A DNA stretch of 55,455 nt from Oscillospiraceae bacterium (GTDB lineage: Bacteria; Bacillota; Clostridia; Oscillospirales; Oscillospiraceae): assembly GCA_902767915.1 (NCBI GenBank), contig CACXJE010000018.1, positions 1 to 55,455 of the forward strand, in the 5' to 3' direction. The notes beneath the pieces are model-generated. The model ran no database searches, was not told the origin of the DNA, and was given only the letters and a program-made list of their open reading frames with translations. A program made the position numbers and the translations under genes. How positions within the stretch are numbered: position 1 is the stretch's first letter; the number at the start of each line of letters is the position of its first letter. This document shows, one piece after another, positions 25,902 through 43,068 of the stretch.

Positions 25902-26016
25902 ACTGATCCCTCCGTAATGGTTGATTCGGGTTCGACCAGGTTTATTGTATAATATTTGCGGGCAGAATGCAATGGGGATTCGGAAAAAACAGAGATTCCC
26001 GGCCAGAGAGGAAGGG

Positions 26017-26036
26017 CGCCTAATTTTTGTGGTGGT
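26017..26036 (+). repeat. Island repeat, copy 1 (degenerate)
   Basis: GCGCCTAATTTTTGTGGTGG. It aligns with the copies at 26072 and 26117 (consensus CGCC-C/T-AA-N-T-N-TG-N-GGTGG) and starts the three direct copies at the left edge of the island. Confidence 0.6.
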
Positions 26037-26071
26037 TAAATTTCAAAAAAAGTTGCTATAAACGACCTGCC

Positions 26072-26091
26072 CGCCCAAACTCTGTGGTGGA
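26072..26091 (+). repeat. Island repeat, copy 2
   Basis: CGCCCAAACTCTGTGGTGGA. Its core AAACTCTGTGGTGGA is identical to the arms of the palindrome at 41780-41825. Confidence 0.75.
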
Positions 26092-26116
26092 CAGATCTTT
26101 TTTAGCCTTACCCCCT

Positions 26117-26140
26117 CGCCCAAATTCTGAGGTGGATGAA
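26117..26140 (+). repeat. Island repeat, copy 3
   Basis: The 18 bases at 26122-26139 (AAATTCTGAGGTGGATGA) recur exactly, inverted, at 41323-41340, so the 15.2 kb between them is bounded by perfect inverted repeats. Confidence 0.8.
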
Positions 26141-26201
26141 ACAAATGCTCCAAAAAGTAGCGCATTTTGTAATGAAATGTATTCCGTTATTGGCGCGCTT
26201 G

Positions 26202-26210
26202 TGGTATAAT
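26202..26210 (+). promoter_or_regulatory. Extended -10 promoter of the restriction-modification gene
   Basis: TGGTATAAT is an extended -10 element 60 bp before the methyltransferase start; only a weak -35 (TTCCGT) is seen 17 bp upstream. The remaining gap from 25902 holds the plsY leader and the three repeats. A 39-codon frame beginning at 26145 is discussed under findings. Confidence 0.6.
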
Positions 26211-26270
26211 ATCAAGGAAAAGATACCAGGCCCTGATGGGTTCAAAGCGAAGAAAAAGAGGTAGACTGTT

Positions 26271-29072
26271 ATGACTGAAAACGAACAACGTCTTGCAGCA
26301 AAGCAATTTGCCCAGGATTGGGCTGGACGCGGAGACGAAAAGCAGGACACTCAACTGTTCTGGGTTGCCCTGCTTCAGAAAGTCTATGGAGTAGAAGAAC
26401 CGGATAAGTATATCCAATTCGAGCTTCCTGTAAAGCTGAGCCATACCAGTTTCATAGACGGCTACATTGAAACTACCCGTGTTCTGATCGAGCAGAAAGG
26501 CCTCGACATTGATTTGAAGAAGGGGTACAAACAGTCTGACGGCTCCCTTCTCTCCCCATTCCAGCAGGCCCGTCGCTATGCGGGTTATCTGCCCCACAAT
26601 CAGAATCCTCGTTGGATCGTTGTCTGTAATTTCCAGGAGTTTCATATCCATGATATGAATCGGCCCAACGATGCCCCGGAAGTTGTCAAACTTGCCGACC
26701 TGGAAAAAGAATACGCCCGGCTTCAATTCCTGGTTGACACGGGCAACGAACAGATCAAGCGGGAAATGGAGATCTCCCTGCAGGCCGGTGAGCTTGTAGG
26801 TGTTCTTTACGACGCTTTTCTGAAGCAGTACAAAGATCCTAACTCCCCTGAGACGTTGAAGAGCCTGAACAAGCTCTGTGTCCGGCTCGTCTTCTGCCTC
26901 TACGCCGAGGATGCAGGCATCTTCGGTCAGAAGAACATCTTCCACGACTACCTCGCGCAATTTGACGCCAAAGGAGCTCGTAAGGCCTTGCGCGATCTTT
27001 TTCGTGTTCTGGATCAGAAGCCCGAAGACCGCGACCCATATCTCGCTGACGACGATCCCTTGCTGGCAGCCTTCCCTTACGTCAACGGTGGCCTTTTTGC
27101 TGACGAGAATATCGAGATCCCTCCCTTCACGGAAGAACTGCTGAAGCTGCTTCTGGACAACGCCAGCGGCGATTTCGATTGGAGTGAGATCAGCCCGACC
27201 ATCTTCGGTGCTGTCTTTGAAAGCACTTTGAACCCCGAGACACGGCGTTCCGGCGGGATGCACTATACCTCTATCGAGAACATCCACAAGGTCATCGACC
27301 CGCTTTTTCTGAACGATCTAAATGCGGAGTATGAGGGAATTGTTTCCAACCCGATTACCAAAACCAGGAATCAGCAACTCAAGGAGTTTCAGCAAAAACT
27401 TGCGGGATTAACTTTCCTTGACCCCGCCTGCGGTTCCGGTAACTTCCTTACCGAAACCTATCTTTCCCTGCGGCGCTTGGAAAACAAGGTGGTTCAGGAG
27501 ATCATCGCTACCCAAAGAGGCGCCCAAGCCGGTCAGATCGTCATGGGTGAAACTATCGACCCCAATAAAGTTTCTATCAGCCAGTTCTACGGCATTGAGA
27601 TTAACGACTTTGCTGTCACCGTCGCCAAGACCGCTCTCTGGATTGCAGAGAGCCAGATGATAAAAGAGACGGAGGAGATTGTTCGCTTTGTGATTGATTT
27701 CCTTCCGCTGAAAACCTATGCCAATATCGTAGAAGCTAATGCCCTCCACATCGACTGGGAAACAGTGGTTCCCAAAAATAAGCTATCTTTTATAATGGGA
27801 AATCCGCCTTTTGTGGGCTCTTCTATGATGACTGCACAACAGAAAGCGGAAGCTGTATCTGTATTCGGAAAAGGGAAGCGGATCAACAGCATTGATTATG
27901 TTGGTGCGTGGTATTACAAGGCAGCAGCATTGATGCAAAACACGTCGATCTGTGCTGCATTTGTTTCAACCAACAGCATTACGCAGGGCGAACAGGTTGC
28001 GGCGTTATGGAACAAACTGCTCTTTGCGTATAAAATTCATATTATATTTGCCTATCGAACTTTCAGATGGGACAGCGAAGCGAAAGAAAAAGCAGCGGTT
28101 CATTGTGTTATAATTGGATTCAGTCAGTTCAATCATGGAAAGCCAAAGCTGCTGTTCACAAATGAAACTGGAGCACAAATCGTACAAAGGATAAATCCGT
28201 ATTTAGTTGAAGGCCCGGATGTTTTAGTGGAAAGCAGAGGAACGCCGTTGTGTGACGTTCCAAGAATGACAAAAGGGAATCAGCCTTCTGACGGGGGTAA
28301 TCTTATCCTCTCAGAAGAAGAACGGAAAAAGCTGTTAGAAGCAGATGAAAAGTTGGCGCCATGTATTCGTCGTTATGTTGGCGCAAAAGACTATATCAAC
28401 AATGATGAAGTGCGGTATTGCCTATGGCTGAAAGGCATTTCACCTGCTGTATATAATAAAAATACCGAAGTAATGCGCAGATTGAACGCGGTCCGCGAAA
28501 TGAGACTTGCAAGCTCTGCTGCGCCTACACGAGCGTTGGCTGAAATGCCGTACCTTTTCTTCTCAACCCCGCAGACGGATAGTAACTATCTTTGCATTCC
28601 GGAGGTCTCGTCCGAAAGGAGAAAATACATTCCGATCGGATTTATGGATAAAAGTGTGATTGCAAGTAATAAATTGCTGATCGTTCCAGGCGCAGAATTG
28701 TATCACTTTGGAGTTTTGACTTCTAATGTTCACATGGCATGGACAAGAACAGTATGTGGAAGAATGAAAAGTGATTATCAGTATTCCGGTTCAAATGTTT
28801 ATAATCCGTTTCCCTGGCCCAATCCCACGGAGGCACAGCGGGCAAAGATCGAACAGACCGCCCAGGCCATACTGGACGCCCGGGCCCTGTACCCGGATTG
28901 CAGCCTGGCCGATCTCTACGACGAGACCACCATGCCCCCGGAGCTCCGCAAGGCCCATCAGCAGAACGACAAGGCCGTCATGCAAGCCTACGGCTTTGAC
29001 GTGAAAACCACCACCGAGGCCTCCTGCGTCGCGGAATTGATGAAGATGTATCAAAGAATGATAGGTGTCTAA
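26271..29072 (+). CDS. MmeI-like single-chain restriction-modification enzyme (type IIG/IIL)
   Basis: A 933-residue fusion expected to methylate adenine in its recognition site and cut unmodified DNA. The N-terminus has a PD-ExK-type nuclease pattern, D63-x10-E74-Q-K76, as in MmeI. A helical connector (about 160-340) leads to an N6-adenine methyltransferase with the SAM motif FLDPACGSGNF (about 382-392) and catalytic GNPPF (about 510-514). The target recognition part (about 560-840) is AT-rich compared with the rest. The C-terminal 80 residues, starting NVYNPFPWPNPTEAQ, are GC-rich and are repeated as a fragment downstream. The mosaic composition fits exchange of recognition domains. Exact recognition sequence cannot be read from DNA alone. 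Confidence 0.88.
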   Translation: MTENEQRLAAKQFAQDWAGRGDEKQDTQLFWVALLQKVYGVEEPDKYIQFELPVKLSHTSFIDGYIETTRVLIEQKGLDIDLKKGYKQSDGSLLSPFQQARRYAGYLPHNQNPRWIVVCNFQEFHIHDMNRPNDAPEVVKLADLEKEYARLQFLVDTGNEQIKREMEISLQAGELVGVLYDAFLKQYKDPNSPETLKSLNKLCVRLVFCLYAEDAGIFGQKNIFHDYLAQFDAKGARKALRDLFRVLDQKPEDRDPYLADDDPLLAAFPYVNGGLFADENIEIPPFTEELLKLLLDNASGDFDWSEISPTIFGAVFESTLNPETRRSGGMHYTSIENIHKVIDPLFLNDLNAEYEGIVSNPITKTRNQQLKEFQQKLAGLTFLDPACGSGNFLTETYLSLRRLENKVVQEIIATQRGAQAGQIVMGETIDPNKVSISQFYGIEINDFAVTVAKTALWIAESQMIKETEEIVRFVIDFLPLKTYANIVEANALHIDWETVVPKNKLSFIMGNPPFVGSSMMTAQQKAEAVSVFGKGKRINSIDYVGAWYYKAAALMQNTSICAAFVSTNSITQGEQVAALWNKLLFAYKIHIIFAYRTFRWDSEAKEKAAVHCVIIGFSQFNHGKPKLLFTNETGAQIVQRINPYLVEGPDVLVESRGTPLCDVPRMTKGNQPSDGGNLILSEEERKKLLEADEKLAPCIRRYVGAKDYINNDEVRYCLWLKGISPAVYNKNTEVMRRLNAVREMRLASSAAPTRALAEMPYLFFSTPQTDSNYLCIPEVSSERRKYIPIGFMDKSVIASNKLLIVPGAELYHFGVLTSNVHMAWTRTVCGRMKSDYQYSGSNVYNPFPWPNPTEAQRAKIEQTAQAILDARALYPDCSLADLYDETTMPPELRKAHQQNDKAVMQAYGFDVKTTTEASCVAELMKMYQRMIGV
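28797..29000 (+). repeat. Direct repeat A: C-terminal part of the restriction-modification gene
   Basis: About 200 bp are repeated near-identically at 29693-29900, with long exact stretches around GCCCAGGCCATACTGGACGC. Confidence 0.9.
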
Positions 29073-29096
29073 AACACATAATCGGAGAATAATTGT

Positions 29097-29666
29097 ATGA
29101 AAAAATTCTTAAAAAATCCATGGACGATTAGCATGGGAAGCGTGTTTTTTGGTTTTTTGCTTACAGTTCTTTATGATCTGATAAAAGGGAAAAATATCTT
29201 TTCTACGGTTGGAGGGATATTATCGAATGTTATTACATTCTTGCTTTCTGTTATGAATTTTCGGCTAAAAGTTTGGTGGGTACTTATTGGACTAATTGTA
29301 GTTTTCCTCATTTTATGCCTAATTGCAAGGTACAATGAATCAAAAACTATTCAGGCGGAGCAGGAAAAACCACCCTTTTTCAAATATACAAAAGACCAGA
29401 TAAAAGGATGGAACTGGGAATGGAGGTGGTATAAAAACCTTTATGGCCAATATGATATTGAAGACTTACATCCAGTTTGTAGTTCATGTGGCACACCGCT
29501 TGTACGAAGTGATAACATAGAATATAATCTGGAGTGTATGAGATGCAACAAAAAGTATAGTGAATACTTACCTGATATGGACAATATTAAGATATATATT
29601 CGTGACAGCGCAAAAAGAGGAATTTATCAAGGAAACGAAAGCGAAATCAATAGAAGACAACTATAA
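29097..29666 (+). CDS. Membrane protein with C-terminal zinc ribbon, unknown
   Basis: A 189-residue AT-rich gene product. Hydrophobic segments lie at about 12-27, 38-54 and 58-77, then a cytoplasmic-type tail has CSSC (C128, C131) and CMRC (C147, C150), a rubredoxin-like zinc knuckle. I do not recognise the family. It sits between the two copies of the methyltransferase C-terminus, so it travelled with, or into, the restriction locus. Base composition is clearly lower in GC than the core genes. A role in phage defence or as an accessory to the restriction enzyme is conceivable but unproven. Confidence 0.65.
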   Translation: MKKFLKNPWTISMGSVFFGFLLTVLYDLIKGKNIFSTVGGILSNVITFLLSVMNFRLKVWWVLIGLIVVFLILCLIARYNESKTIQAEQEKPPFFKYTKDQIKGWNWEWRWYKNLYGQYDIEDLHPVCSSCGTPLVRSDNIEYNLECMRCNKKYSEYLPDMDNIKIYIRDSAKRGIYQGNESEINRRQL

Positions 29667-29692
29667 GTCGATATATAGTACATAAAAAATTT

Positions 29693-29917
29693 GTTTACAA
29701 CAATTTCCTCTGGCCGAATTCGACGGAGGCCCAGCGTGCGAGGTTCGAGCAGATGGCCCAGGCCATACTGGACGCCCGGGCCCTGTACCCGGATTGCAGC
29801 CTGGCAGACCTCTACGACGAGACCACCATGCCCCCTGAGCTCCGCAAAGCGCATCAACAGAATGACAGAGCGGTCATGCAGGCGTACGGCTTCGACAAAG
29901 AAATGACTGGTGATTAA
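29693..29917 (+). pseudogene. Duplicated C-terminal fragment of an MmeI-like methyltransferase
   Basis: It reads VYNNFLWPNSTEAQRARFEQ and continues through LADLYDETTMPPELRKAHQQ to a stop, matching the last 75 residues of the upstream enzyme at about 90% identity. There is no start codon or methyltransferase core, so it is a remnant of a second, probably differently specific, gene. The first residues differ most (NNFLWPNS against NPFPWPNP), as expected if it came from another allele. Confidence 0.85.
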
Positions 29918-29918
29918 T

Positions 29919-30662
29919 ATGCAATTAAGTGATTGTTATTTTGTCAAGTGCTTTGGCAAACAATCATATCGCGACACCTTCTATAGCGGAGAACTTTTCT
30001 TTGGACATGTAAAAGAGTATTGGGGGGCGGAAAATGCTTTCCAACAAGATTTTGAAGGAAGAATTCTCCATCAAGAAGGAAATGGGCTACTTATTGCTGC
30101 AAAACCCGGATTTGAAAGTGTATTAAAACAAGCGCGTTCAGTACACGATATAGAAGGGATAGTAAAAGAACGTGGAGATACGATTATAGCACGTACAACT
30201 TTGGCCTCTTCGTGGATCAATGGTTATATTTGTTGCTTTTATCTTCTCCCCAAAAGAAACGTAATACTACAGAATGACAAAATGGTTTTTGCCACCGATA
30301 CTATGGAGAATAAATTCAAATTTTTTTTAGCGAACTATATGGGGGATAAGAGCGTGGTATTTGCCGGCATTTATGATGCAGCAAGGCTTTGTAAAGCGTT
30401 TGAAGAGGTGTGTACTAATCAAGGGGTGCCATTTGCACGCGATATGGTAAAATATGCTGATATGGATACCACACAGGTTTTCTCGTGTATCAACCGAGGA
30501 GATATTTCACCAATTATCTTTACGAAACGCAAAGTATATAGTTACCAGCAAGAGTATAGAATGTTTATCGCTCCCCCAAAAGAGAGTGCGGCAGAGAACT
30601 ATAGGCTTAAAGGTGTTGCCGTTGCATCCTGCATTGTAGCAACATTTGAATATCCGTCTTAA
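29919..30662 (+). CDS. Unknown protein in the restriction island
   Basis: A 247-residue soluble protein, AT-rich. It begins MQLSDCYFVKCFGKQSYRDTF with a following GELFFG and DFEGR; this opening (a short KCF strand, then a Y-x-x-x-F/Y-x-x-G-x-L-x-F pattern and a later D-x-x-EG) resembles a loosely defined group of uncharacterised proteins often met in phage and defence regions, but I cannot name it. No catalytic motif is certain. It starts two bases after the fragment stop, with GGTG as a weak ribosome binding site. GTG 29910 is an alternative start. Confidence 0.6.
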   Translation: MQLSDCYFVKCFGKQSYRDTFYSGELFFGHVKEYWGAENAFQQDFEGRILHQEGNGLLIAAKPGFESVLKQARSVHDIEGIVKERGDTIIARTTLASSWINGYICCFYLLPKRNVILQNDKMVFATDTMENKFKFFLANYMGDKSVVFAGIYDAARLCKAFEEVCTNQGVPFARDMVKYADMDTTQVFSCINRGDISPIIFTKRKVYSYQQEYRMFIAPPKESAAENYRLKGVAVASCIVATFEYPS

Positions 30663-30731
30663 TATTTTACGGGAAAGTGTTGTTAATGCAAAGACTTGAA
30701 AGGACTCCTGCTAACGCATTGAGGTGGTAAT

Positions 30732-30914
30732 ATGCCGAGACAAAAAAAAGAAAACGTACCAGTCAGTTTCCGTCTCGCAAAGGATGTTAACGAGCGGCTG
30801 GAGCAATTTTGCAAGGACTCCGGGCAATCAAAGACCGTAGCCGTCGAGCGTGCTATAGCGATGTATGTTGACGATTACGAGGCCAAGCAGCGAAAGCTCA
30901 GTGAAGAAAAGTAA
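30732..30914 (+). CDS. Ribbon-helix-helix protein
   Basis: A 60-residue protein: VPVSFRLAKDVNERLEQFC is a typical RHH strand and helix, followed by SKTVAVERAIAMYVDDYE. RHH proteins of this size act as antitoxins, plasmid copy regulators or local repressors. GAGGTGG lies upstream of the ATG. No toxin-like gene overlaps it; the neighbours are the 247-residue unknown and a convergent XRE gene. Confidence 0.8.
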   Translation: MPRQKKENVPVSFRLAKDVNERLEQFCKDSGQSKTVAVERAIAMYVDDYEAKQRKLSEEK

Positions 30915-30940
30915 AATGATATTCACGGCCAAAAGGCCCA

Positions 30941-30979
30941 AAGTGCCCCTCTCCCAGTTGCATTCCGGGAGAGGGGCTT
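30941..30979. terminator. Convergent terminator between the RHH and XRE genes
   Basis: AAG-GCCCCTCTCCC pairs with GGGAGAGGGGC-TT around an 11-nt loop, between convergent stop codons. T-runs are short. Confidence 0.65.
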
Positions 30980-30994
30980 GCCTTCCGTTGAGGC

Positions 30995-31249
30995 TTAGGC
31001 GTCCGTGTATTTCACTGCATATTGAGCATCTGGAATATCAAGCCAATTCATAAGTCGAAGAAGGTAGTGACCATCCGGCGTTGTATCACCGTTTTCCCAC
31101 TTTTGGTATGTTCGGACGGTTGCTCCAATGGCGTCCGCAACTTCCTGTTGCGTGAATTTCAACTTCTTGCGTCGTTCTTTCAGCACGGTGAAGTCGAACT
31201 CCATACACAGAGGGCCTGCATAGATCTGATACCAAGTGCCGTCATACAA
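30995..31249 (-). CDS. XRE-type helix-turn-helix regulator
   Basis: A 69-84 residue DNA-binding protein. The helix-turn-helix is clear: FTQQEVADAIGATVRTYQKWENG, then DGHYLLRLMNWLDI. The better start may be ATG 31204 (MEFDFTVLKERRKK), giving 69 residues; neither start has a good ribosome binding site. It lies just left of the promoter of the giant surface protein gene and is divergent from it, so it could regulate that operon. Confidence 0.75.
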   Translation of the reverse strand: MYDGTWYQIYAGPLCMEFDFTVLKERRKKLKFTQQEVADAIGATVRTYQKWENGDTTPDGHYLLRLMNWLDIPDAQYAVKYTDA

Positions 31250-31257
31250 TTTAGGTC

Positions 31258-31286
31258 TTGCAAAATCAAAAGAAATACATTATAAT
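31258..31286 (+). promoter_or_regulatory. Promoter of the giant surface protein operon
   Basis: TTGCAA and TATAAT are 17 bp apart. The leader of about 82 nt ends in a strong GGAGAAAGGAGG site. The -35 box overlaps the 5' side of the divergent XRE gene region. Confidence 0.8.
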
Positions 31287-31374
31287 GAATTAAAATAGAA
31301 TAAGTGTGGAAACCTGCCATTTGTCTTCAAATGCAAGCTTTCTTTTGAAACCCCGGAGAAAGGAGGATCCCTAA

Positions 31375-34300: not shown

Positions 34301-37300
34301 CCACAACAGAAGAAAACTATTATTCGCTGAACGCTGTCGTGGTCAACACCGATCCGATTGCTGACAACACACTGTCCGGGACAATCTATTGGCAGGGTTC
34401 CTATTTTTCGCAGCCGACAGATTACGTTGTGCTCCATTTCCGGAAAAACGGCGAACCGCTCACAGATCTTACGGTCTACAAATCCGAAAGCGCGTTGGAG
34501 GAGAATCTCTGGTTCTGGCAGCTCACTTTAGATGACTATGACCCGGACGCCGAATATACCGTGACGGAGACCATTCCCTTCGGACCGGATGGACCGGAAT
34601 ATGTCGGCGTGCCCTATGGGCTGAACCTGATCAACTATGAGATCTCGTTCGATTATGTACAGGCGGAGGCACAGGTCATCTTTGACGTTGAGCCTGCAGG
34701 CCTGGATCAGATTTCCATCGGAGGTTATGACTACTGGACTCATAAAGCCGGGTGGGACTTCACGGTTGAAAAACGTGACGGCTGGTGGGCGCGTAAAGCC
34801 GACAAGAAGAAGACCGAGGTTGCCCCCATCGAGAACTATATCGTTGAAGCGCCGAATCTGCACAATTATGTCACCGTAAGGGCAAATCCCTACGCCTACA
34901 CCCGTCCGGGCTGGGGCAATCTCTTCTACAACTTCACCGTGTACTATCTGTTCAACTGCGACAATCTGAAGCTTCACATCTCCAAGGAGTGGGAGGACGA
35001 CGGTTCCGCCATGTACCCGGAGTCGGTTGTGGTCGAGGTCTTCCGGGACGATGAGAAGATTGCCGAAACTACGCTGACGCGAAATGGCTCTAACTGGAGT
35101 ACAGCTGTCATCAGTGAGGATTTGAACCATAATAACCTCACCCGCACCTATTACGATACCACAAACTATACGCATCATAAGTATGTTTATACCATCCGGG
35201 AGAAGCCCGTCGAAGGCTTTACCTCGAAAGCGACCGTAACCGCGGATACAGGAACCGATATCTACTATACCCTTACGAATACCTGGGTCGGTGCGGATTA
35301 CATGAATGTGGCCGGCACCGTCACCTGGGAGGGGGACGAGGGCAAGGAGTATCTCCGCCCGGAGAACGTGCAGATCTCTGTGATCGACAGCAACGAAGAG
35401 TATGTCAAATCCATCACGGTGCCTGTCAGCGGAGACGGTAAATTCGAGGCCAAATACCTGCCCGGCAAGGACGCGGAGGGCCACCCGCTGACCTATTCCG
35501 TCATGGAGAGCCATGTGGACGGCTACACCTCCGTTTACAGCACCCCGACCTTCGACGAGGAGACCCGGACCTGGACCTGCGACGTCACCAACAAGCTTAC
35601 GGGCTACTGCCCGATCACTGTCAAAAAGACCGTGGAAGGCAAGCCGGAGAAGGAGGACAAGGACGGAGACGGGGAGGAAGAGGAAGAGACCTACAAGTTC
35701 ACCGTTGAACCGAAGAACGGGCTTCAGACCGTGGACCATGAATTCCCCGCCCCCAGGGAGTCGGAGCTCAGCATTCAGGGCGCCGGCGAGACCAAGGCCG
35801 AGTTCATTCTGGATCAGGACGGCTTGTATGCCTATACCTTCAAGGAGGTAAAGGGCGAGACCGAGAACTGCGTCTACGACGAAGAGGTGAAGCTGGTGCT
35901 GATCCTCCGAACCACCGATCCGGAGGGGAATGTCAACTTCAAAAGCTGGGTCGGCGTTGACGGAGAAGAAGGCTTCACGCCCTCAGACGACAACAAGTCC
36001 GATACCGTGGAATTCGTCAACCGCTTCCCGAACGTCACCATCGAAAAGAAGTGGGACATCGACCTGGAGAAGAACGACAAGCCCGACAGCATTGAGGCTG
36101 TGGTACAGAAGAAGAACGGCGACAATTGGGAGAACGTCAAGCTGGTCGAGCTGAAGGATGACAACGACTGGAAGGTCACAGTCAACCTTCCCATCGGAGA
36201 GGATGACGAGTACCGGGTCCGTGAGCTGAAGGAAGAGACGGCCCTGCAGGAGATCATCAGGACCCTGAAGGAGACCATCACCCAGTTCAGCACAGACCAG
36301 TATGATTCCTGGATCGGAAAGGTCAAGGAATCCTTGGGCGACTATTACAACATGCTGCCGGACTTCATTCGGGAAGCCGCGGACCAGGGCGCCGACAAGC
36401 TGAAAGAAGCTTTGAAGGCCAAGGAGGAGGACCTGCTGGACAAACTGCTGGAGCAGATCGGTCTGGCTACTGCCATGGACCGCATCGTCTACGACGAGGA
36501 CGACAGCGACAAGCCCGATGGCGACGATGTCAAGACCAACATGGTCACATTCCATGTGGGTGAAAAGAATTCCGTGGTTACTGCCGGAAAGGTTGACGCC
36601 CATGTCACAGAGTATAAGGTGTCCTATTCCAAAGATGATAACACTTATACTATTGAAAACATGGCGGTCTTGGAGATCGACGTCATCAAGCGCTGGATCA
36701 GCATCGGCGACGATGGAATCACCATCGTCGGCGTCAACGATGGCGACGATGACGATGATGACGATGATGACGATGACGATGACGATATGCCGGATTCCGC
36801 CTGGATCGTCCTGCTGTTCAAGCCGACTGCCGATATCAGCAACAACAGCGCGGCCAGCAGCTTGGCCAGCGCTGCCGGCGTGGATCTGAGCAAAGTTCTG
36901 GAGTATGAGTTCCCCGTGATCAATCCGGAGGAAGGCGGCAAGGATCCCATCAGCATCATCAGCAAGCTGACCATTGGCGTTGATCTGGACATTTTCAGCA
37001 ACCTGCCCCTTGTCCCCAAGCTGGCCATAGACCGGGTGGATGAGGACTGCAACTGGACGAAGTCCTACGTGGTCAGCAAGTACTACTATGGCATTCCGAT
37101 GGAGTACAAGGGCGCCGAGCTTGGCAGTGAGATCATTCGCCAGATTGTCAAATACCTGACCGGAATAGACTTCTTCATTTCCTACAATCCCTTCGATAAC
37201 TATTTCAGCATCCCCACCAAGGCGATCCGTACCTTTGCCGGGATCACGGATCCTGGCGACCTGCTGGATTTCTCCAAGCTGGGCGGGGCGCTGCTGAACA

Positions 37301-38478
37301 AGGCCAAGTCCCTGACCATGGATGACATCAAAAACTTCGGCCCGTCGACGATGCTGGACGACTGGCACCTGATGGCCAACGTGATCAACGTCAAGATCAA
37401 CTTCGATCTCGATTCCGACGACAGCCTTTCCGGCACCAAGACCTGGAAGAACGACACCGAGGAGAACCGGCCTGAGTGGATCAAGATCCATGTCAAGGAC
37501 GGGGAAGAGGAAATCGAAGGCTCGCCCATCACCCTGAACAAAAGTGATTTTGAAGGCAAGGACGAGTGGACCTGGGAGTTGGAGCTGCCGGAGGATAGCG
37601 AGATCGATCCGGATGACTGCACCGTCTCTGAGGAATATCCGGAGGATTACCAGTACAAGGACAGCTATACCGCAGAGTTCAATGGCCTGGATATCATCAA
37701 CACCTGGAACGCGACTACCGTCCGGGTCTCCGGCAAGAAGATCTGGAAGGATGACAATAACGCGGCCGGACTCCGCCCGGAATTCGTCACGATCAAACTG
37801 CTGGCTGACGGGGAAGAGATCGCTTCTGTCAAGACCTCGAAGCAGGGCGAATGGAGGTTCGTCTTTGCGGAGCAGCCCAAGTACAAGACGGAAACGGATG
37901 AAGAAACCGGCGAAACCAAAAAGGTTGAGATCAAATACACCGTCGTCGAGGACGAGGTGGAAGGCTATGCAGCTTCCTATGAGGGCTACAACGTGATCAA
38001 CTCCCGCTCGGGGAAGGGGATCCTTGTGATCAGGGCGACCCGCTCCGAGGACGAGAAGGAGAAGGAACAGGCCTACGTGTATCGGATCCAGGACGAGAAC
38101 GGTTCGGAGCTTCTTGCCGTCGCCGTGATCCTGGAGGCCGGGCAGACTGAGAACAGCGTTCGGATCGAACTCCCGACTGGCATGTATCAGATCACGGAGG
38201 AGCGTCCCTGGAGCTGGCGTTGGAAGGGCACCCTGGTCAGCGCGATCATGCAGGCTACCCAGAGCGGGTATTCCTCGGCGAATGCAAGATTTGGAGATCT
38301 GGTCTGCATCGCAGAAGGCAGGGAGACTGTAGCCACCTATTCCTACGATCTGGAGATACCTGACTGGCTGAACGGCTGCGCCCACCGCCAGGAGGATGCC
38401 GCTCCGCCTCCAAATCACAAAACGGACCCGGAGGACGCCAATCCGGATGACGAACACAACACCGATCCCGATGACTGA
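31375..38478 (+). CDS. Giant Cna-B repeat surface protein
   Basis: A 2367-residue secreted protein. A signal peptide (1-29, ending LAFA-D) is followed by a Pro/Glu/Thr repeat stalk (about 38-130) and a unique beta-rich region (about 145-820). Cna-B-like domains begin near 1000 (SGTIYWQG), 1198 (HISKEWEDD), 1309 (AGTVTWEGD), 1551 (IEKKWDIDL), 2017 (LSGTKTWKND) and 2115 (SGKKIWKDD), and a pilin-like domain lies near 1409-1550 (ITVKKTVEG). Such domains often carry isopeptide bonds. A 14-Asp tract sits at about 1791-1804. A segment near 825-985 is repeated, divergently, near 1765-2000. No LPxTG-type signal or C-terminal membrane helix is present; it ends in an acidic Asp/Pro tail. Three TasA-like genes follow, so it may join a matrix fibre. 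Confidence 0.88.
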   Translation: MNGILKRLTCLILTLCLLSTIMLPGLAFADETTEPVSALLESEVSETGSSETEPVQPESVETEPVEPAPVETESAQPEPAETDPAETGPAETGPAETDPVESEPVETEPVETDPVVTEPEPVPEQPSDGPTTETEITVVSRTENIVGDVFARMFTQDEEEQKTLKEKLAEYPREHHELSYYKDSSRVRYLKGGEGEDRNYLVYRDSYLLISEEDSLLYKVDVSEDGTSATVSPAVFPERLDNKTGIVFLGENIGCDEILVFGGETVYHGDSVTFSLKPAEEIVITELFSDGKLEFNGDSGEPKRVDFGFTVYPKGTNWEGEITSFKPYWPNAHVHVNLWDLEFKLILNLKFDLGFEIETTGSSGGRQSAKIASVSVPVELFDIGVQYNLQVEFPNEPMKFKGTSTTEMEITMDLLFGTRISKFENPISLTDLTVKNPADYNKDIPFYIGSQILIYGGFLEISVDLWLFSIDFGPVLSINIDNSAGCYGVARYEKNTFTEEDIGQKNRLHTCAAQGEAGCLTVDLREVSKFWIYFKIDIYVDHWEFPLYSPGEETISRYSYYNSYTHHSGMQKGVCPHLFYMVPVRVWLDDNMTRPAANMAVTVSDSLQISPAEERFVSAVTDSGGSAFVYLPYKQNYQYTFVSNGVIDGRTLAGSKKQTVYIQAGDNPVVNIVLRSDEIINIKTDIVWEADFEKKDLPSGSYAYLNILLFRRRAGSNEEWEWTNYYDAAVSSEGWHVDQRTVPKFGFDSSGAFLYEYRVRLLEKNDYGNGYSVITPENDNCFILRGIEAYTDVAGNTVQSHTNKYQISYDEKTTDETLETTIRATAVMDIRLSKSWKLQDPANKAEFVYLALLQKPADGWENKAVEKHVPQDWVVILDPIQGPHESIRSLTEADQLIVYDDLSSVENRPLAIGKVDNDNQWTLNYTVCKYRNGIRLQYEGCELDNTVMENLLKHEYDIRNSVLVKSFGNYLSIPGTTTEENYYSLNAVVVNTDPIADNTLSGTIYWQGSYFSQPTDYVVLHFRKNGEPLTDLTVYKSESALEENLWFWQLTLDDYDPDAEYTVTETIPFGPDGPEYVGVPYGLNLINYEISFDYVQAEAQVIFDVEPAGLDQISIGGYDYWTHKAGWDFTVEKRDGWWARKADKKKTEVAPIENYIVEAPNLHNYVTVRANPYAYTRPGWGNLFYNFTVYYLFNCDNLKLHISKEWEDDGSAMYPESVVVEVFRDDEKIAETTLTRNGSNWSTAVISEDLNHNNLTRTYYDTTNYTHHKYVYTIREKPVEGFTSKATVTADTGTDIYYTLTNTWVGADYMNVAGTVTWEGDEGKEYLRPENVQISVIDSNEEYVKSITVPVSGDGKFEAKYLPGKDAEGHPLTYSVMESHVDGYTSVYSTPTFDEETRTWTCDVTNKLTGYCPITVKKTVEGKPEKEDKDGDGEEEEETYKFTVEPKNGLQTVDHEFPAPRESELSIQGAGETKAEFILDQDGLYAYTFKEVKGETENCVYDEEVKLVLILRTTDPEGNVNFKSWVGVDGEEGFTPSDDNKSDTVEFVNRFPNVTIEKKWDIDLEKNDKPDSIEAVVQKKNGDNWENVKLVELKDDNDWKVTVNLPIGEDDEYRVRELKEETALQEIIRTLKETITQFSTDQYDSWIGKVKESLGDYYNMLPDFIREAADQGADKLKEALKAKEEDLLDKLLEQIGLATAMDRIVYDEDDSDKPDGDDVKTNMVTFHVGEKNSVVTAGKVDAHVTEYKVSYSKDDNTYTIENMAVLEIDVIKRWISIGDDGITIVGVNDGDDDDDDDDDDDDDDMPDSAWIVLLFKPTADISNNSAASSLASAAGVDLSKVLEYEFPVINPEEGGKDPISIISKLTIGVDLDIFSNLPLVPKLAIDRVDEDCNWTKSYVVSKYYYGIPMEYKGAELGSEIIRQIVKYLTGIDFFISYNPFDNYFSIPTKAIRTFAGITDPGDLLDFSKLGGALLNKAKSLTMDDIKNFGPSTMLDDWHLMANVINVKINFDLDSDDSLSGTKTWKNDTEENRPEWIKIHVKDGEEEIEGSPITLNKSDFEGKDEWTWELELPEDSEIDPDDCTVSEEYPEDYQYKDSYTAEFNGLDIINTWNATTVRVSGKKIWKDDNNAAGLRPEFVTIKLLADGEEIASVKTSKQGEWRFVFAEQPKYKTETDEETGETKKVEIKYTVVEDEVEGYAASYEGYNVINSRSGKGILVIRATRSEDEKEKEQAYVYRIQDENGSELLAVAVILEAGQTENSVRIELPTGMYQITEERPWSWRWKGTLVSAIMQATQSGYSSANARFGDLVCIAEGRETVATYSYDLEIPDWLNGCAHRQEDAAPPPNHKTDPEDANPDDEHNTDPDD
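31515..31745 (+). repeat. 15-bp tandem repeats coding the Pro/Glu/Thr stalk
   Basis: Units of the type CCTGCGGAAACGGAC (Pro-Ala-Glu-Thr-Asp) recur with a 15-bp period, nearly identical at 31617-31670 and more diverged outward. Recent slippage would change stalk length. Confidence 0.85.
36745..36786 (+). repeat. GAC/GAT run coding 14 aspartates
   Basis: Fourteen Asp codons in a row inside the second copy of the internally repeated segment; a candidate calcium-binding or slippage-prone spot. Confidence 0.9.
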
Positions 38479-38531
38479 GTAGAGATGTCAAAACAAATCA
38501 AGGTTGATCGGAAGAAAGGAGAACGGATTCA

Positions 38532-39044
38532 ATGAAAAAGAAACGTATGCCGGACCCCTTGGGTGTCGCGCTGATTCTTCTTTGCCTGGTCATGTTTTCG
38601 ACAGTTTTGCCCTCTGGTCTGCAGGCGCGGTTTGTCACAAGGGCGTCTGGAACTGACAGTGCCCGGCTCGCCTCCTTCGCTCCCAACATGGAGGCGAGCC
38701 CGGACGCGGTCACCATTGCGGCCAACAGTCAGTCGGAGTACGTGATCACGATCCGGAACAAGGGTGAGACCGCGGTCCGATATACGGCGGTCGTGGAATT
38801 CTCGGGAGAGGATCCCGAAGCGGAATCTGAGAAATTCGACGAAGGTACCGAGGATGCACCGAAGCTCACCTTTACCGGCGAACTTGGCCCCGGCGAAGTG
38901 GCCGAGGAAACGCTAACTTTGGATATGTCGGAATATTTCGATCAGATGGAGGACAAATGGGATACCCTCAGCAACAAAGACGTCAGCGGTGAATCCGGCG
39001 AGATCCCCTTTGCGGTTTTCGTGACCTTCACACAGCTGGACTAA
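38532..39044 (+). CDS. TasA/camelysin-like exported protein 1
   Basis: A 170-residue protein with one N-terminal hydrophobic segment (about 10-30, GVALILLCLVMFSTVLPSG) followed by LQARFVTRASG and an Ig-like beta domain (EYVITIRNKGETAVRYTAVVEF). This build, a SipW-type signal peptide then an alanine/arginine cleavage region and a beta-sandwich with an N-x-G strand, matches TasA/camelysin matrix proteins. AGAAAGGAG precedes the ATG. It begins 53 bp after the giant surface protein gene and is presumably in its operon. Confidence 0.72.
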   Translation: MKKKRMPDPLGVALILLCLVMFSTVLPSGLQARFVTRASGTDSARLASFAPNMEASPDAVTIAANSQSEYVITIRNKGETAVRYTAVVEFSGEDPEAESEKFDEGTEDAPKLTFTGELGPGEVAEETLTLDMSEYFDQMEDKWDTLSNKDVSGESGEIPFAVFVTFTQLD

Positions 39045-39057
39045 AGGAGGCTTGGAA

Positions 39058-39726
39058 ATGCGAAAAAAACTACGTTTCGGCAAACGAGGCCTGCTTTTGA
39101 CCGTTGGGCTTCTTCTGGCCGCGGCTGTCGTCCTGATTCCTCTGGTGGGGCAGTCTCGGGCAAAGTTCAAGACCCAGCTGGTGGTCGCCAACCAGGTCTC
39201 CTATCAAAATGAGCTGGCTGAGAGCTTCCAACTGCTGGATCAGCCTGTGGTTCTCCAAGAGGACGGCAGCTATCTGAAAAACGAGGCCGAAGACTCGATG
39301 CCCACCAGCGGCTTTTCCTACAAGCTGATTCCGGGCATTACAATTCCCGCCGCTCCCTATATCGAGATCGAGCACAAGACAGAGATTCCCGCCTATCTGT
39401 ATTTTGAGGTCGTCTGTCCTGAGGGCGCTCCCGCTCTGCTGGTGACAGAAGACTGGGAAAAATTAGTGACAGAAGGGAAGTTCGGCGGCGATGTCTACAC
39501 CTATAAGGACGGCGCCCTGGTGAAAACGGAAGAGGAAGACAATTTTACGTTCGATACCTTCACCGTGGAGACACTGGATTCAAAGCCCATGGACTTTGAA
39601 TCTGGGGAGATTCATGTTTACGCCTACATGATCCGTCAGCTGGAGAATCAAACGGCGTCTGAGGCCTTTGCGGCCGCGCCCACGCCGAATCCGCCGTCGG
39701 CTCCCGAGCCGGAAACGGGCGATTAA
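39058..39726 (+). CDS. TasA/camelysin-like exported protein 2
   Basis: A 222-residue protein: N-terminal basic patch, hydrophobic helix (about 11-29), then GQSRAKFKTQLV and a beta-rich domain. The C-terminus is Pro-rich and ends PEPETGD. Although PETG recalls a sorting motif, no hydrophobic segment or basic tail follows, so it is not a sortase substrate by normal rules. AAAGGAGG lies before the ATG. It sits 13 bp after the first TasA-like gene. Confidence 0.7.
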   Translation: MRKKLRFGKRGLLLTVGLLLAAAVVLIPLVGQSRAKFKTQLVVANQVSYQNELAESFQLLDQPVVLQEDGSYLKNEAEDSMPTSGFSYKLIPGITIPAAPYIEIEHKTEIPAYLYFEVVCPEGAPALLVTEDWEKLVTEGKFGGDVYTYKDGALVKTEEEDNFTFDTFTVETLDSKPMDFESGEIHVYAYMIRQLENQTASEAFAAAPTPNPPSAPEPETGD

Positions 39727-39747
39727 GGCTGCAGGAGGAGGATCTCG

Positions 39748-40266
39748 ATGAAGATGAAGTTTTTTGAGAAAACAGGACCCGGCGCAAGGCGGACGGCCCT
39801 GATCCTGATTCTGGTGGTCTTGCTGACCGTCGGCTGCGTCACCACTGCTTTTGCCCTGCGGGATACCACGGGCGAGGTCACGGAGTCCTTGGAGAAGGCT
39901 GAGGTAACCTGTGAAGTGAACGAGAACTGGTCTGTTACCAACACCGGGAATATTCCGGCCCTGATCCGGGTCCGGGTGATTGTGAATCTCACCGACGGCG
40001 ACACCCTGCTTCCCGGAGACGTTCCCGACTATACGGTCGGCAGCGGCTGGGTGAAGATCGGCGATTATCTGTACTATACGGGTATCGTTGATTTTGAGGA
40101 AGGCGAAAACGGCACCGGCAATGTCACGACCCCTGCCATCAGTTATTCGAATACCGGAGCGCAGACCACCAAGGTCACAGTCTTGGCGGACGCCATACAA
40201 GCGACGCCGAGTACGGCAACCCAGCAGGCCTGGGGTGTCACGTTTGAGAACGGAAATTGGTCCTGA
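39748..40266 (+). CDS. TasA/camelysin-like exported protein 3
   Basis: A 172-residue protein with a hydrophobic helix (about 15-36) ending TTAFALRDTTGEVTESLEKA, then the strand NTGNIPALIRVRVIVNLTD and VGSGWVKIGDYLYYTG. This is the best match of the three to the clostridial alternate-signal (SipW-dependent) exported family, where D-K/T-T-x-x-V-x-N and VKNTG-x-x-x-AYIR patterns recur. AGGAGGAGG precedes the ATG. It is the last gene before a terminator. No SipW signal peptidase gene is in the window. Confidence 0.78.
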   Translation: MKMKFFEKTGPGARRTALILILVVLLTVGCVTTAFALRDTTGEVTESLEKAEVTCEVNENWSVTNTGNIPALIRVRVIVNLTDGDTLLPGDVPDYTVGSGWVKIGDYLYYTGIVDFEEGENGTGNVTTPAISYSNTGAQTTKVTVLADAIQATPSTATQQAWGVTFENGNWS

Positions 40267-40278
40267 CAAAGGAAAAAA

Positions 40279-40317
40279 CAGCGCTTCCGCGGCTCGATTG
40301 GGTTCGCGGAGGCGCTG
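40279..40317 (+). terminator. Terminator of the surface protein operon
   Basis: CAGCGCTTCCGCG pairs with CGCGGAGGCGCTG around a 13-nt loop, with the moderate T-rich GGTCTTATTATG after it, 12 bp past the third TasA-like stop. Confidence 0.75.
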
Positions 40318-40329
40318 GTCTTATTATGT

Positions 40330-40545
40330 TTGAAATACATCAGCCTGATCGTGAAATACCATCTGCAGACGCCGTGGAACGAGGCCGAGGACCTGGCGGA
40401 GACCGCTCGGAAAAGGGCGGAGGCGAAGGTCATCCAACCCGAGCTTCCGATCCCGGTGCCGGGTGCCGTCGGCGTGAAGGAACGGGTCACCGGCGTGCAG
40501 GTCCAGTCGATTGCAGACGCGCTCCGAAAGCTCCTGATTATGTGA
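40330..40545 (+). pseudogene. Possible C-terminal remnant or small hypothetical gene
   Basis: A 71-codon frame from a TTG gives a plausible soluble sequence (WNEAEDLAETARKRAEAK, then VQSIADALRKLLIM). There is no ribosome binding site and it directly follows a terminator, so it may be the tail of a lost gene. I do not recognise it. Confidence 0.3.
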
Positions 40546-40561
40546 TCTGAAACAAAACAAT

Positions 40562-40596
40562 GCGCTTCTCCAAACGAAAACCGTTCGGAGAAGCGC
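40562..40596. terminator. Convergent terminator at the end of the island membrane gene
   Basis: GCGCTTCTCC pairs with GGAGAAGCGC, with ACG/CGT pairing further in. On the minus strand it is followed by the T-rich ATTGTTTTGTTTC, fitting the membrane protein gene. Confidence 0.75.
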
Positions 40597-40612
40597 GTTT
40601 GGCGTAAGCGGA

Positions 40613-41326
40613 TCAGATCGTGCTGTGAAGCTTTCTGAACTTGACGGATTTGGAATCCAGAATAAGGATGGCGTAGAACACGCCGGTAAAGGCGCCGCCG
40701 ATCAGCAGCAGGGAGATCAGGCCGATGCCGAAGACTCTGCCCATGTTTTTCAGCAGTGTCTTCCCGTGCTTAAAGAAGAGCACGGCGCCCTCGCAGGTGG
40801 CCTTGGCGGCGTTGACCTGGCTCCGGTAGAAGACCCAGCCAAGGCAGCAGTCGCAGAGGTAGTTGATCACCGTGGTCAGCACGCTGCTGACTGCGCTGCC
40901 GACGGTTCCGCCGGTATCGCCGACGATGTGCTCGCCGACCCTCGTGATGACACGACCCAGCTGATTGAAGATGCCCTTGATGGCGCTGGTGATCGCAAAG
41001 TAGGCGGCGACGGTCAGGAATCTCGCTTTGACGACCGTTTTCCCCTCGGCGATCACATTCTCGGGCAGCTCGCCCTCCACAATGCCCTTGGTCATCATGG
41101 CGATCTGACCCGCCTTCAGCATATAAGAGACAAAGCGCAGCACGATTACCATCAGGCTCAGGCCGATCACCGCGCCGATGACCAGGCCCAGGATCCCGGC
41201 CTCGAAGAACTTCTCGCCGAGGAAAAAGCCAAGCGTACTGAGAGCCAGCAGCAGGACGATGGACAGGATATGAAAAGAAGAAAGAATGGAATGACTACGT
41301 ACTTGGATTAGGCTGACAACAATCAT
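40613..41326 (-). CDS. Membrane protein, choline-transporter-like pattern, probably 5'-truncated
   Basis: A 237-residue frame with about five hydrophobic helices. The later part (CDCCLGWVFYRSQVNAAK, then GAVLFFKHGKTLLKNMGRVFG) recalls the C-terminal region of CTL/SLC44-type choline-transporter-like membrane proteins, where a short F/Y-x-x-x-VNA and a K-T-LLK pattern occur; this is a weak, pattern-level match. The ATG lies inside the 18-bp repeat with its GAGGTGG touching the start codon, too close to function. The first 17 residues look unlike the rest. Most likely the original 5' end was replaced when the repeat arrived. Confidence 0.55.
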   Translation of the reverse strand: MIVVSLIQVRSHSILSSFHILSIVLLLALSTLGFFLGEKFFEAGILGLVIGAVIGLSLMVIVLRFVSYMLKAGQIAMMTKGIVEGELPENVIAEGKTVVKARFLTVAAYFAITSAIKGIFNQLGRVITRVGEHIVGDTGGTVGSAVSSVLTTVINYLCDCCLGWVFYRSQVNAAKATCEGAVLFFKHGKTLLKNMGRVFGIGLISLLLIGGAFTGVFYAILILDSKSVKFRKLHSTI

Positions 41327-41378
41327 CCACCTCAGAATTTAGACTCATGGGTCTAAACTCTGAGGTGGATATTTTTTT
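41325..41378. repeat. Island repeat palindrome A
   Basis: Twenty-base arms 41325-41344 and 41351-41370 are complementary except for one position, around TCATGG, and are followed on the plus strand by ATTTTTTT, so the element can also act as a terminator. It encodes the last residues (IHLRV) of the gene at 41353. Confidence 0.85.
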
Positions 41379-41763
41379 GCAGCTTATATTGCCCGCATTT
41401 TATGGCGTCGACTATGAATAGTACGCTGTCTTTGCTGATCGAATCATAGGGAACGACAAGACTCTCCTCGTTGCACACGATAAGAAGGCTTCTTCGGCGG
41501 TATATTGTGTCCGCCTTGTCGTCTGGATTGTAATACTTTACAGAGATCTCATACACGCCATCCGACAGCTCGCCGTATGCGTAAACGACATAAGCACCCC
41601 AGTCATAACGTTCTTCAAATCGTAGGAATTGCCTCGCATAGCCGAAGACTGTATCAGATCCTTTTATTTGAGCTACATACTTACTGAACTTGTATGGCAA
41701 CACGATCGCAACTGTCAAATCGCACACATCTACATAACAGACGCCACTATCTTCCGGTTTCAT
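41353..41763 (-). CDS. Small cassette protein 1, unknown
   Basis: A 136-residue soluble protein (starts MKPEDSGVCYVDVC; contains FGYARQFLRFEERYDWGAYVVYAYGEL and YNPDDKADTIYRRRSLL). The family is not recognised; size and mixed alpha/beta look are compatible with an immunity-type protein. GGAAGGAAGG precedes the ATG, supporting real translation. It is boxed by two palindromic repeats, and its stop codon lies inside one of them. Confidence 0.65.
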   Translation of the reverse strand: MKPEDSGVCYVDVCDLTVAIVLPYKFSKYVAQIKGSDTVFGYARQFLRFEERYDWGAYVVYAYGELSDGVYEISVKYYNPDDKADTIYRRRSLLIVCNEESLVVPYDSISKDSVLFIVDAIKCGQYKLQKNIHLRV

Positions 41764-41779
41764 GATTTACCTTCCTTCC

Positions 41780-41825
41780 ATCCACCACAGAGTTTGGATC
41801 TATAGGTCAAAACTCTGTGGTGGAT
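41780..41825. repeat. Island repeat palindrome B
   Basis: Perfect 16-bp arms ATCCACCACAGAGTTT and AAACTCTGTGGTGGAT around a 14-nt spacer. It separates the two small cassette genes. Confidence 0.9.
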
Positions 41826-41838
41826 ATGTCGCTTGCTG

Positions 41839-42294
41839 CTATTTATTCCAGTCGATCTCCCAGGGGGTCAAATCCTGAAGTGTTCGTTTGGCGTCCTCGG
41901 CTGCAATGTTGAATTGGTATTCCTCCTTATGGGTTTTGAATGCGTACAGCATTCTTGCGATGTCCAAATTTTCTTCATCGCCGAGACTTTCCGCCTTTCG
42001 CATGATGATTGATATTTCTGTCAGACGAACCTCTTCTATTGGGATCTCCTCGTTAAGAATCTTTAATTGCCTTTCTGTAAACTTTTTTCCATAATTGGGT
42101 TTGTAGTCCGGGCTGTCTTTATTCTGAAAGACAGACGGTGGCAGCCCGTAATCTGACGGTGACTCAACTTTCGTTCCACCCCTTTCCCAACGACTTTGAC
42201 GGGTAAAAACTTCACGCTCCGCTTCTGTCCGAGCATATTTTTGGCCTCCTCTCCGTGCTTTTATCATACATGATTCTGAAGCCGTTGTGTCCAC
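41839..42294 (-). CDS. Small cassette protein 2, unknown
   Basis: Up to 151 residues, charged and soluble: basic start (MIKARRGGQKYARTEAER), then YGLPPSVFQNKDSPDY and a helical acidic C-terminal half ending DLTPWEIDWNK. No family recognised. The start is uncertain: GTG 42294 or ATG 42267, neither with a good ribosome binding site, so the N-terminus may be missing. It lies between palindrome B and the half-repeat at 42389. Confidence 0.5.
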   Translation of the reverse strand: MDTTASESCMIKARRGGQKYARTEAEREVFTRQSRWERGGTKVESPSDYGLPPSVFQNKDSPDYKPNYGKKFTERQLKILNEEIPIEEVRLTEISIIMRKAESLGDEENLDIARMLYAFKTHKEEYQFNIAAEDAKRTLQDLTPWEIDWNK

Positions 42295-42327
42295 AAATTA
42301 CCATGTCTGTCAAAAAATAAAATTCCC

Positions 42328-42368
42328 TGCTACTCCACCTCTGGCAGGCGAAATAGCAGGGGTTGTTT
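42328..42368 (+). terminator. Hairpin to the right of cassette 2
   Basis: CCCTGCTA pairs with TAGCAGGG around 20 nt, followed on the plus strand by GTTGTTTATTTT. Its gene is unclear, since cassette 2 is on the other strand. Confidence 0.5.
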
Positions 42369-42388
42369 ATTTTGTGGGATTACAGCAA

Positions 42389-42406
42389 ATCCACCTCAGA
42401 TTTTAG
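42389..42406 (-). repeat. Island repeat, right-edge half copy
   Basis: ATCCACCTCAGATTTTAG is a single arm in the opposite orientation to the copies at 26017-26140, and marks the right edge of the island 65 bp before tRNA-Ser. Confidence 0.75.
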
Positions 42407-42428
42407 GTTCCCAGAGAGGAAAAAAACC

Positions 42429-42456
42429 TTGACAAAGATTTGAAAATATGATAATG
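42429..42456 (+). promoter_or_regulatory. Promoter of tRNA-Ser(UGA)
   Basis: A consensus TTGACA (42429-42434) is followed 15-17 bp later by GATAAT/TAATGT. Confidence 0.65.
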
Positions 42457-42471
42457 TAATCAAGCAAATTC

Positions 42472-42560
42472 GGAGAGATGTCCGAGCGGTTTAAGGAGCC
42501 GGTCTTGAAAACCGGTGACCCGGCAACGGGCCGTGGGTTCGAATCCCACTCTCTCCGCCA
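42472..42560 (+). tRNA. tRNA-Ser (anticodon TGA)
   Basis: An 89-nt class II tRNA: acceptor GGAGAGA/TCTCTCC, anticodon loop CTTGAAA (anticodon 42506-42508), long variable arm (GACCCGGCAACGGGCC), T arm GGTTCGAATCC, encoded GCCA. Confidence 0.96.
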
Positions 42561-42733: not shown

Positions 42734-42905
42734 GTTATATTCGCCTTCGGCGAGCTCTATTGCGTGGCAGTTATATTCGTCCTACGGACGAGTTATATTG
42801 CGCTGCGCGCAGTTTGAAGGCGAATATAATATAACTTTGCGGCGTCGCCGCAAAATATAACTGATCCGCAGGATCAATCTAACTGCGCCGCAGGCGCAAT
42901 ATATC
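42734..42905. repeat. Cluster of six mini-palindromes (REP-like)
   Basis: Within 170 bp, six short stem-loops, each with a 4-5 bp GC stem and a 3-nt loop, alternate with the AT motif TTATATT/AATATAA: CGCC-TTC-GGCG, CGTCC-TAC-GGACG, GCGC-TGC-GCGC, GCGGC-GTC-GCCGC, GATCC-GCA-GGATC, GCGCC-GCA-GGCGC. Arms differ but the frame is constant, which marks a repeat family rather than copies of one unit. Confidence 0.8.
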
Positions 42906-42941
42906 TTCTGTGCTTTGGTGCACTTTTACGCGCTCTTACAC

Positions 42942-42981: not shown

Positions 42982-42995
42982 GATCGGGCTGTTCG

Positions 42996-43023
42996 TAGGG
43001 GCCGATGCCCACATCGGCCCTAT
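42996..43023. repeat. GGGCCGATG-type intergenic palindrome
   Basis: GGGCCGATG and CATCGGCCC form a perfect stem around CCCA; it looks like a dispersed intergenic repeat rather than a terminator. Confidence 0.6.
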
Positions 43024-43068
43024 CTGCAAAACCCGCTTTTTTGCAGCGCTGCTGCAAGCACTTAAAGA

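Follow-up and report, generated by a model that had tools for sequence, protein, structure and literature searches.

Within a 55,455-nucleotide stretch of DNA from an Oscillospiraceae bacterium (hereafter the window), copies of one short repeat are found on both sides of a group of genes that includes a restriction enzyme. This arrangement raises the question of whether the repeats are the ends of a mobile DNA unit and, if so, where that unit begins and stops and by what type of enzyme it might be moved. A first-pass annotation, prepared from the sequence alone, proposed that the repeats bound an accessory island, and that a 15.2-kb segment between two inverted 18-mers looks like a unit that could invert or move.

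A short repeat marks the element and its copies

The window holds seven exact copies of AAANTCTGWGGTGGA (Table 1) compared with 0.01 expected, and none of 100 shuffled sequences reached this number, which establishes that the repeat family is real. When up to three mismatches are tolerated the enrichment is only mild (14 matches versus a mean of 7.98). The copy at 26017 is a degenerate one with three mismatches, and is the left terminal repeat itself. Both palindromes formed by inverted motif copies, as well as the exact inverted 18-mer pair (26122-26139 and 41323-41340), were found as the first-pass annotation had described them.

Similar searches were made in other genomes. A 19-base version of the motif, with one mismatch allowed, matched three of 23 genomes of the genus, and all 15 places listed reside in this element (seven in G000, four in G020 and four in G008), while a control search with the motif written backwards gave one match, in G004. 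The exact motif is present in four of 39 relatives' genomes (G000, G008, G020 and G033), and the region around the single match in G033 has no homology to the window. The DNA of the left end has matches in four of the 23 genus genomes, where the match in the fourth (G007) spans 24 bases and touches none of the motif copies, and the pattern of the ends was found in one of 295 genomes of the order, which is the genome that carries the window. A two-site pattern returned 11 places besides the window among 398 genomes of the phylum, and the two of these viewed in context are unlike the element; in viral contigs it returned nine stretches, and a palindrome pattern returned two, none of which resembles the element. 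Plasmids and phages that were searched gave no match to the element.

A second copy defines the ends of a mobile unit

The proposal that the repeats bound a mobile unit is supported by a second copy at another place, with the same ends and a target duplication. This 4.2-kb version of the element, designated L016 (G020:C52), has exactly the same ends in a different chromosomal setting. Left-end and right-end motif copies are 4.1 kb apart both there and in L017 (G008:C125); the 12,114 bases of L017 are identical to part of L016, and the two are therefore treated as one independent copy. BLAST homology between L016 and the window covers 26014-28126, 29693-30948 and 42287-42412, beyond which it does not extend in either direction. 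The neighbours of the element are plsY and tRNA-Ser in the window versus other genes in L016, where glutamine-synthetase-like and lipase-like frames (named by eye) are present on the left and a tRNA array on the right. Only two independent insertions were found, those in the window and in L016. The motif had also been expected elsewhere in the window's own genome (78% complete), where one further exact match was found (C1:41023); this match is inside a 2606-aa reading frame and is therefore probably due to chance. The first-pass annotation had named absence of the motif elsewhere in the genome as a refutation, and for the part of the genome covered this absence was seen; it leaves mobility unrefuted, since a related genome supplies the second location.

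These comparisons define an element of 16,399 bp, bounded by the outermost repeats and a 9-bp target duplication (Table 1). Its terminal inverted repeats (GGG.../...CCC) are about 24 bp in length, are 17/24 identical in each copy of the element, and each contain the motif. The duplication in L016 is preserved at 7 of 9 positions (CCGATGCGC and CCGGAGCGC). The run common to both window flanks is 11 bp, and the length of 9 bp is given for the duplication because the right end is placed at CCC. When 9-mers from the flanks were paired at random 200,000 times, a 9/9 match occurred with a frequency of 1.5e-5, and 7/9 or better with a frequency of 0.002. We scanned 20 sequences of at least 10 kb (344,162 bases) for a GGG end and a CCC end separated by 0.8-20 kb, requiring 13 or more of 22 inverted-repeat positions to match and the 8-9-bp duplication to be exact. 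The sole structure returned was 26014-42412; the L016 copy was not recovered because its duplication is imperfect (two mismatches).

Table 1. Positions of the element, its cargo and its insertion target in the window.
Feature	Position	Strand	Basis or remark
Left target duplication copy (9 bp), AGAGAGGAA	26005..26013	.	sequence comparison
Left terminal inverted repeat, GGGCGCCTAATTTTTGTGGTGGTT	26014..26037	+	L016 homology starts exactly at 26014; 17/24 identical to right end
First subterminal direct motif copy	26074..26092	+	conserved in L016
Second subterminal direct motif copy	26119..26137	+	conserved in L016
Exact AAANTCTGWGGTGGA copies	26077+, 26122+, 41326-, 41355+, 41781-, 41810+, 42390-		exact match
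MmeI-type IIG restriction enzyme-methyltransferase, both copies	26271..29072	+	profile matches, comparison with L016
189-aa protein, window copy only	29097..29666	+	no family at E 0.001
Left-over 3' end of another MmeI allele	29692..29896	+	85% to 28796-29000
250-aa protein, both copies	29910..30662	+	no good family match
60-aa ribbon-helix-helix (CopG-type) protein, both copies	30732..30914	+	RHH_1 E 6.7e-6; same frame in L016
11.3 kb in window copy only	30949..42286	.	BLAST versus L016
84-aa helix-turn-helix (HTH_3) protein	30995..31249	-	profile match
2367-aa Cna_B-domain protein	31375..38478	+	Pfam
Three more ORFs, same direction (170, 224, 172 aa)	38532..40266	+	ORF list
237-aa ORF, GC3 0.80	40613..41326	-	no family; membrane-bound look by eye
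Palindrome 1, two inverted motif copies	41325..41370	.	then T run on + strand
136-aa ORF, 3' end in palindrome 1	41353..41763	-	no family
Palindrome 2, two inverted motif copies	41780..41825	.	sequence comparison
151-aa ORF	41839..42294	-	no family
Right terminal inverted repeat, outward, GGGAACCTAAAATCTGAGGTGGAT	42389..42412	-	L016 homology stops exactly at 42412
Right target duplication copy (9 bp), AGAGAGGAA	42413..42421	.	sequence comparison
-35 TTGACA upstream of tRNA-Ser	42429..42434	+	16 bp from element right end
tRNA-Ser (TGA), gene behind target promoter	42472..42560	+	tRNA prediction

The DNA outside the repeats had been described as conserved chromosome throughout. The flanks include plsY and ruvAB (Pfam), a pair of tRNA-Ser genes and a frame judged MutS2-like by eye, but the neighbourhood of tRNA-Ser is not conserved in the eight relatives' regions compared. 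The tRNA-Ser pairs of relatives have other neighbours, and in G020:C15 plsY adjoins tRNA-Ser in the opposite relative orientation. Relatives without the island had been predicted to retain a single clean repeat, but no empty site was found among the relatives' loci compared. The gene to the left of the L016 element was found in G019, G004 and G001, with no tRNA array after it in the stretches compared.

Both insertions are adjacent to a candidate promoter

The right end of the element in the window faces a -35 hexamer for tRNA-Ser (Table 1), for which the candidate -10 elements are GATAAT (15-bp spacing) and TAATGT (17-bp spacing). All 13 relatives' loci compared likewise have TTGACA upstream of tRNA-Ser; they are the tRNA-Ser loci among the matches listed in a search that gave some match in 22 of the 23 genus genomes. 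In L016 the distance from the left end to TTGACC is 16 bp, and this hexamer precedes the lipase-like frame, which is read away from the element. The promoter-proximal end is the right end in the window and the left end in L016, and the element is thus found in both orientations. In a simulation of hexamers located 15-17 bp from an end, matches of 5/6 or better occurred at 0.0116 per end and 6/6 at 0.00075.

The use of TTGACC as the -35 element in L016 is contestable. An alternative, TTGAAA, is located 23 bp away with an equal score and is the choice of a consensus scanner, which considers 16-18-bp spacers only and called no promoter at the tRNA-Ser site. We also observed, in genome G011 (L077/L168, near position 864 of L168; G011:C80), a sequence, ending in ATTAGAGGTTCCC, that lies upstream of the -35 element of the same tRNA-Ser at a distance of exactly 16 bp. 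It is possible that GGGAACCTCTAATTT in L168 is the end of a related element, which is not counted here because its other end was not found and AGGTTCCC is common.

Cargo of the two copies

The DNA between the ends is broadly accessory, as had been proposed. The MmeI-type enzymes of the window and L016 are 98-100% identical per 60-aa block over residues 1-480, only 37-68% identical over residues 481-840, and 79-90% identical at the end, and the recognition region has been swapped between the two copies. Relatives of this enzyme are present in 32 of 245 order genomes, including the window's own, and none was found in viral contigs. Of 23 MmeI loci checked, 22 show no copy of the motif over the DNA compared, even with up to two mismatches tolerated; the remaining locus is the window. 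The 250-aa protein was detected in two of 147 order genomes (its own and one with a weak partial match) and was not found in plasmids, phages, viral contigs or PDB sequences; its structure model has a mean pLDDT of 35 and is unusable. GC3 values for the AT-rich cargo are 0.32-0.55 versus 0.65-0.81 in five flanking genes.

In accord with the absence of integrase and transposase genes noted previously, no transposase, integrase or recombinase family was recognised in the 12 ORFs tested from the element, all of which were compared with Pfam and part with PADLOC, NCBIfam and PHROGs. Since no recognised recombination enzyme is encoded inside, movement would be in trans.

The stretch carried by the window copy only is of mixed composition. 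GC3 is 0.65-0.80 in the HTH gene, the Cna_B surface-protein operon and the 237-aa ORF, which is like that of the flanking genes, and 0.46-0.50 in two AT-rich ORFs beside the palindromes, with a shift in base composition at palindrome 1. DNA from 38400 to 42286 was not matched in any of the other 22 genus genomes (E 1e-8), and the 136-aa protein was not found in plasmids. The last codons and stop of this 136-aa ORF come from palindrome 1. Near the start of the Cna_B protein is a 15-bp coding repeat array (31495-31734).

The palindromes, at 46 bp each, are 82% alike over 49 nt. Their arms match like with like (A-type with A-type, T-type with T-type), and folding is strong, at -30 to -31 kcal/mol for 50 nt. 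We rejected the idea that they are joined transposon ends because the bases between the TTTAG arm and the CTAAA arm are two fewer than in abutted ends, and because they lack the 6-10-bp spacer between joined ends that is given for published circles in the consulted part of a survey (PMC3942029). Our guess is that they may be symmetric double protein-binding sites or hairpin terminators.

Comparison with known mobile elements

The consulted sections of a survey of prokaryotic Mutator-like transposases (Guerillot et al. 2014, PMC3942029) describe 8-9-bp duplications and inverted repeats of 18-39 bp with a terminal C. According to these sections, p-MULT 3 (ISLre2, TnGBS) has a promoter peak at 16 bp, as do 13 ISs of p-MULT 4 (ISKra4 side), and in p-MULT 3 and ISKra4 the element end is 15-17 bp upstream of the -35 box. 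ISLre2 is found in many Firmicutes, and the group includes large elements such as the TnGBS ICEs and Mycoplasma ICEs. Relative to these descriptions, our element is similar in its duplication (9/9 in the window and 7/9 in L016, compared with 8-9 bp), in its ~24-bp ends, which are within 18-39 bp and have the terminal C, and in its 16-bp distance from a -35 element at two insertions, the -35 of L016 being contestable. In contrast, the element carries no Mutator-like DDE transposase among its 12 ORFs, and therefore would be at most a non-autonomous Mutator-like derivative. It also departs from the orientation rule given there for p-MULT, wherein the right end is at the promoter unless the ends are near-identical: repeats in the published cases with insertions in both orientations are 83-100% alike, whereas here both orientations occur with ends that match at 17/24. 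The element additionally has subterminal direct repeats and internal palindromes, which may set it apart from described p-MULT members.

Mobile insertion cassettes (MICs), in the part of the source used here, are IS-related objects without a transposase gene that a cognate transposase can activate (PMC3129680). The element is like these MICs in having terminal repeats, a target duplication, passenger genes and no transposase, with presumed movement in trans. Unlike them, as so described, it measures 4-16 kb and carries a restriction enzyme, joined in one copy by a surface-protein operon. No cognate IS with these ends was found in 23 genus genomes, 22 of which are listed as less than 100% complete. 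The search for a helper by its end repeats likewise yielded no other copy of the ends in these genomes.

The PluTI element and others were reportedly presented in 2010 by Khan and by Furuta as mobile restriction-modification units. The restriction-modification genes of our element similarly reside in a putative mobile unit, and differ from those units, so far as partial accounts describe them, in the type IIG single-chain enzyme, the promoter-proximal target, the 9-bp duplication and the swapped recognition region. IS-linked movement of a restriction-modification system is known (PMC3031569, in the portion consulted). Plant Pack-MULEs, as outlined in the consulted sections of PMC3942029, are non-autonomous elements of the Mutator type that hold captured genes and insert close to the 5' end of genes; those are eukaryotic and carry gene fragments, whereas our element carries whole bacterial genes.

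Two other classes were rejected. The element is on the promoter side of tRNA-Ser, not at its 3' end, and no integrase family was found in the tested ORFs, unlike an integrase-type tRNA island. Tn7-like transposons produce a 5-bp duplication and carry TnsABC-type genes, whereas the duplication here is 9 bp and no TnsABC-type family is present among the tested ORFs. No transposase-less, promoter-targeted Mutator-like element with a restriction system was encountered in the literature among the matches listed, which comprised titles and abstract starts and few subscription journals. One report, in the part used, describes a large inversion that has a transposase of the ISLre2 family beside it and a tRNA/rRNA region at the other end (PMC12056078); nothing is concluded from it here.

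Proposed mechanism and alternatives

We consider it likely that 26014-42412 is a non-autonomous cargo transposon of the promoter-targeting, prokaryotic Mutator-like kind that is moved in trans. Judged by its sequence signature, the element resembles a putative non-autonomous member of ISLre2/TnGBS or promoter-targeting ISKra4. In this mechanism, the motif would be the binding site of the transposase, with one copy in each ~24-bp terminal repeat and a further two, directly oriented, within the left end. Cutting at the GGG/CCC ends would be done by a DDE transposase whose gene lies elsewhere; insertion would duplicate 9 bp of the target and place the element 16 bp upstream of a promoter's -35 box. 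We infer both the family of the transposase and its action in trans. The RHH protein may bind the repeats as an accessory or regulator, although this is a guess.

The ends and the 9-bp duplication alone do not name a family, and the assignment of the -35 element in L016 is ambiguous. A non-autonomous cargo transposon served by a different DDE transposase, from another IS family with 8-9-bp duplications, would share these features, and the 16-bp distances would then be coincidental. This seems unlikely to us given that a hexamer is located at exactly 16 bp in both insertions. A more distant reading treats the motif as an operator to which the RHH or HTH protein, both encoded in the element, would bind, and the island as not mobile via these repeats. 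The direct repeats upstream of the restriction-enzyme gene and the palindromes between minus-strand ORFs are in keeping with an operator, but the outermost copies are where homology breaks off in both chromosomal settings, and target duplications adjoin them there. Moreover, L016 retains the right-end copy with no ORF of at least 80 aa starting beside it, and we regard the operator reading as improbable. Least credible is the scheme of the first-pass annotation, in which site-specific recombination would invert or move the 15.2-kb unit lying between the inverted 18-mers. The exactness of the inverted 18-mer and the change in composition near palindrome 1 are what recommend it, but L016 extends to the outer repeats, and neither the 41323 repeat nor either palindrome is present in it, which contradicts the 15.2-kb segment as a unit common to both copies. 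Our sequence comparisons revealed nothing to support an inversion. This scheme is thus very improbable, and the mobile unit is better placed at the outer repeats.

If the element is a Mutator-like cargo transposon, a broader proposal can be made tentatively, though we hold it to be doubtful: that it is a bacterial counterpart of Pack-MULEs. Such an element would be a promoter-seeking Mutator-type transposon that has shed its transposase, carries a restriction-modification enzyme that swaps its recognition region, and has acquired a 10-kb surface-protein operon whose composition is close to the host's; the palindromes of the motif would mark modules of gene size, open to gain or loss. The cargo transposon would provide a concrete route for restriction-modification systems and surface genes to move without an integrase or transposase of their own, and use of sites upstream of promoters would avoid damage to coding genes. 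Searches that begin with recombinases would miss such elements, which could instead be sought by their ends together with the 9-bp duplication and the 16-bp spacing.

Other sequences near the tRNA-Ser pair

Two additional sequences were observed beyond the element. Downstream of the tRNA-Ser pair is an AT-rich segment (42743-42907), parts of which are matched in G010 (98%), G006, G005 and contig C7 of the window's own genome, among the matches listed. Just past the same pair, at 42992-43025, is a palindromic repeat of ~30 bp that has many copies in genus genomes among the matches listed, in places as inverted pairs ~44 bp apart.
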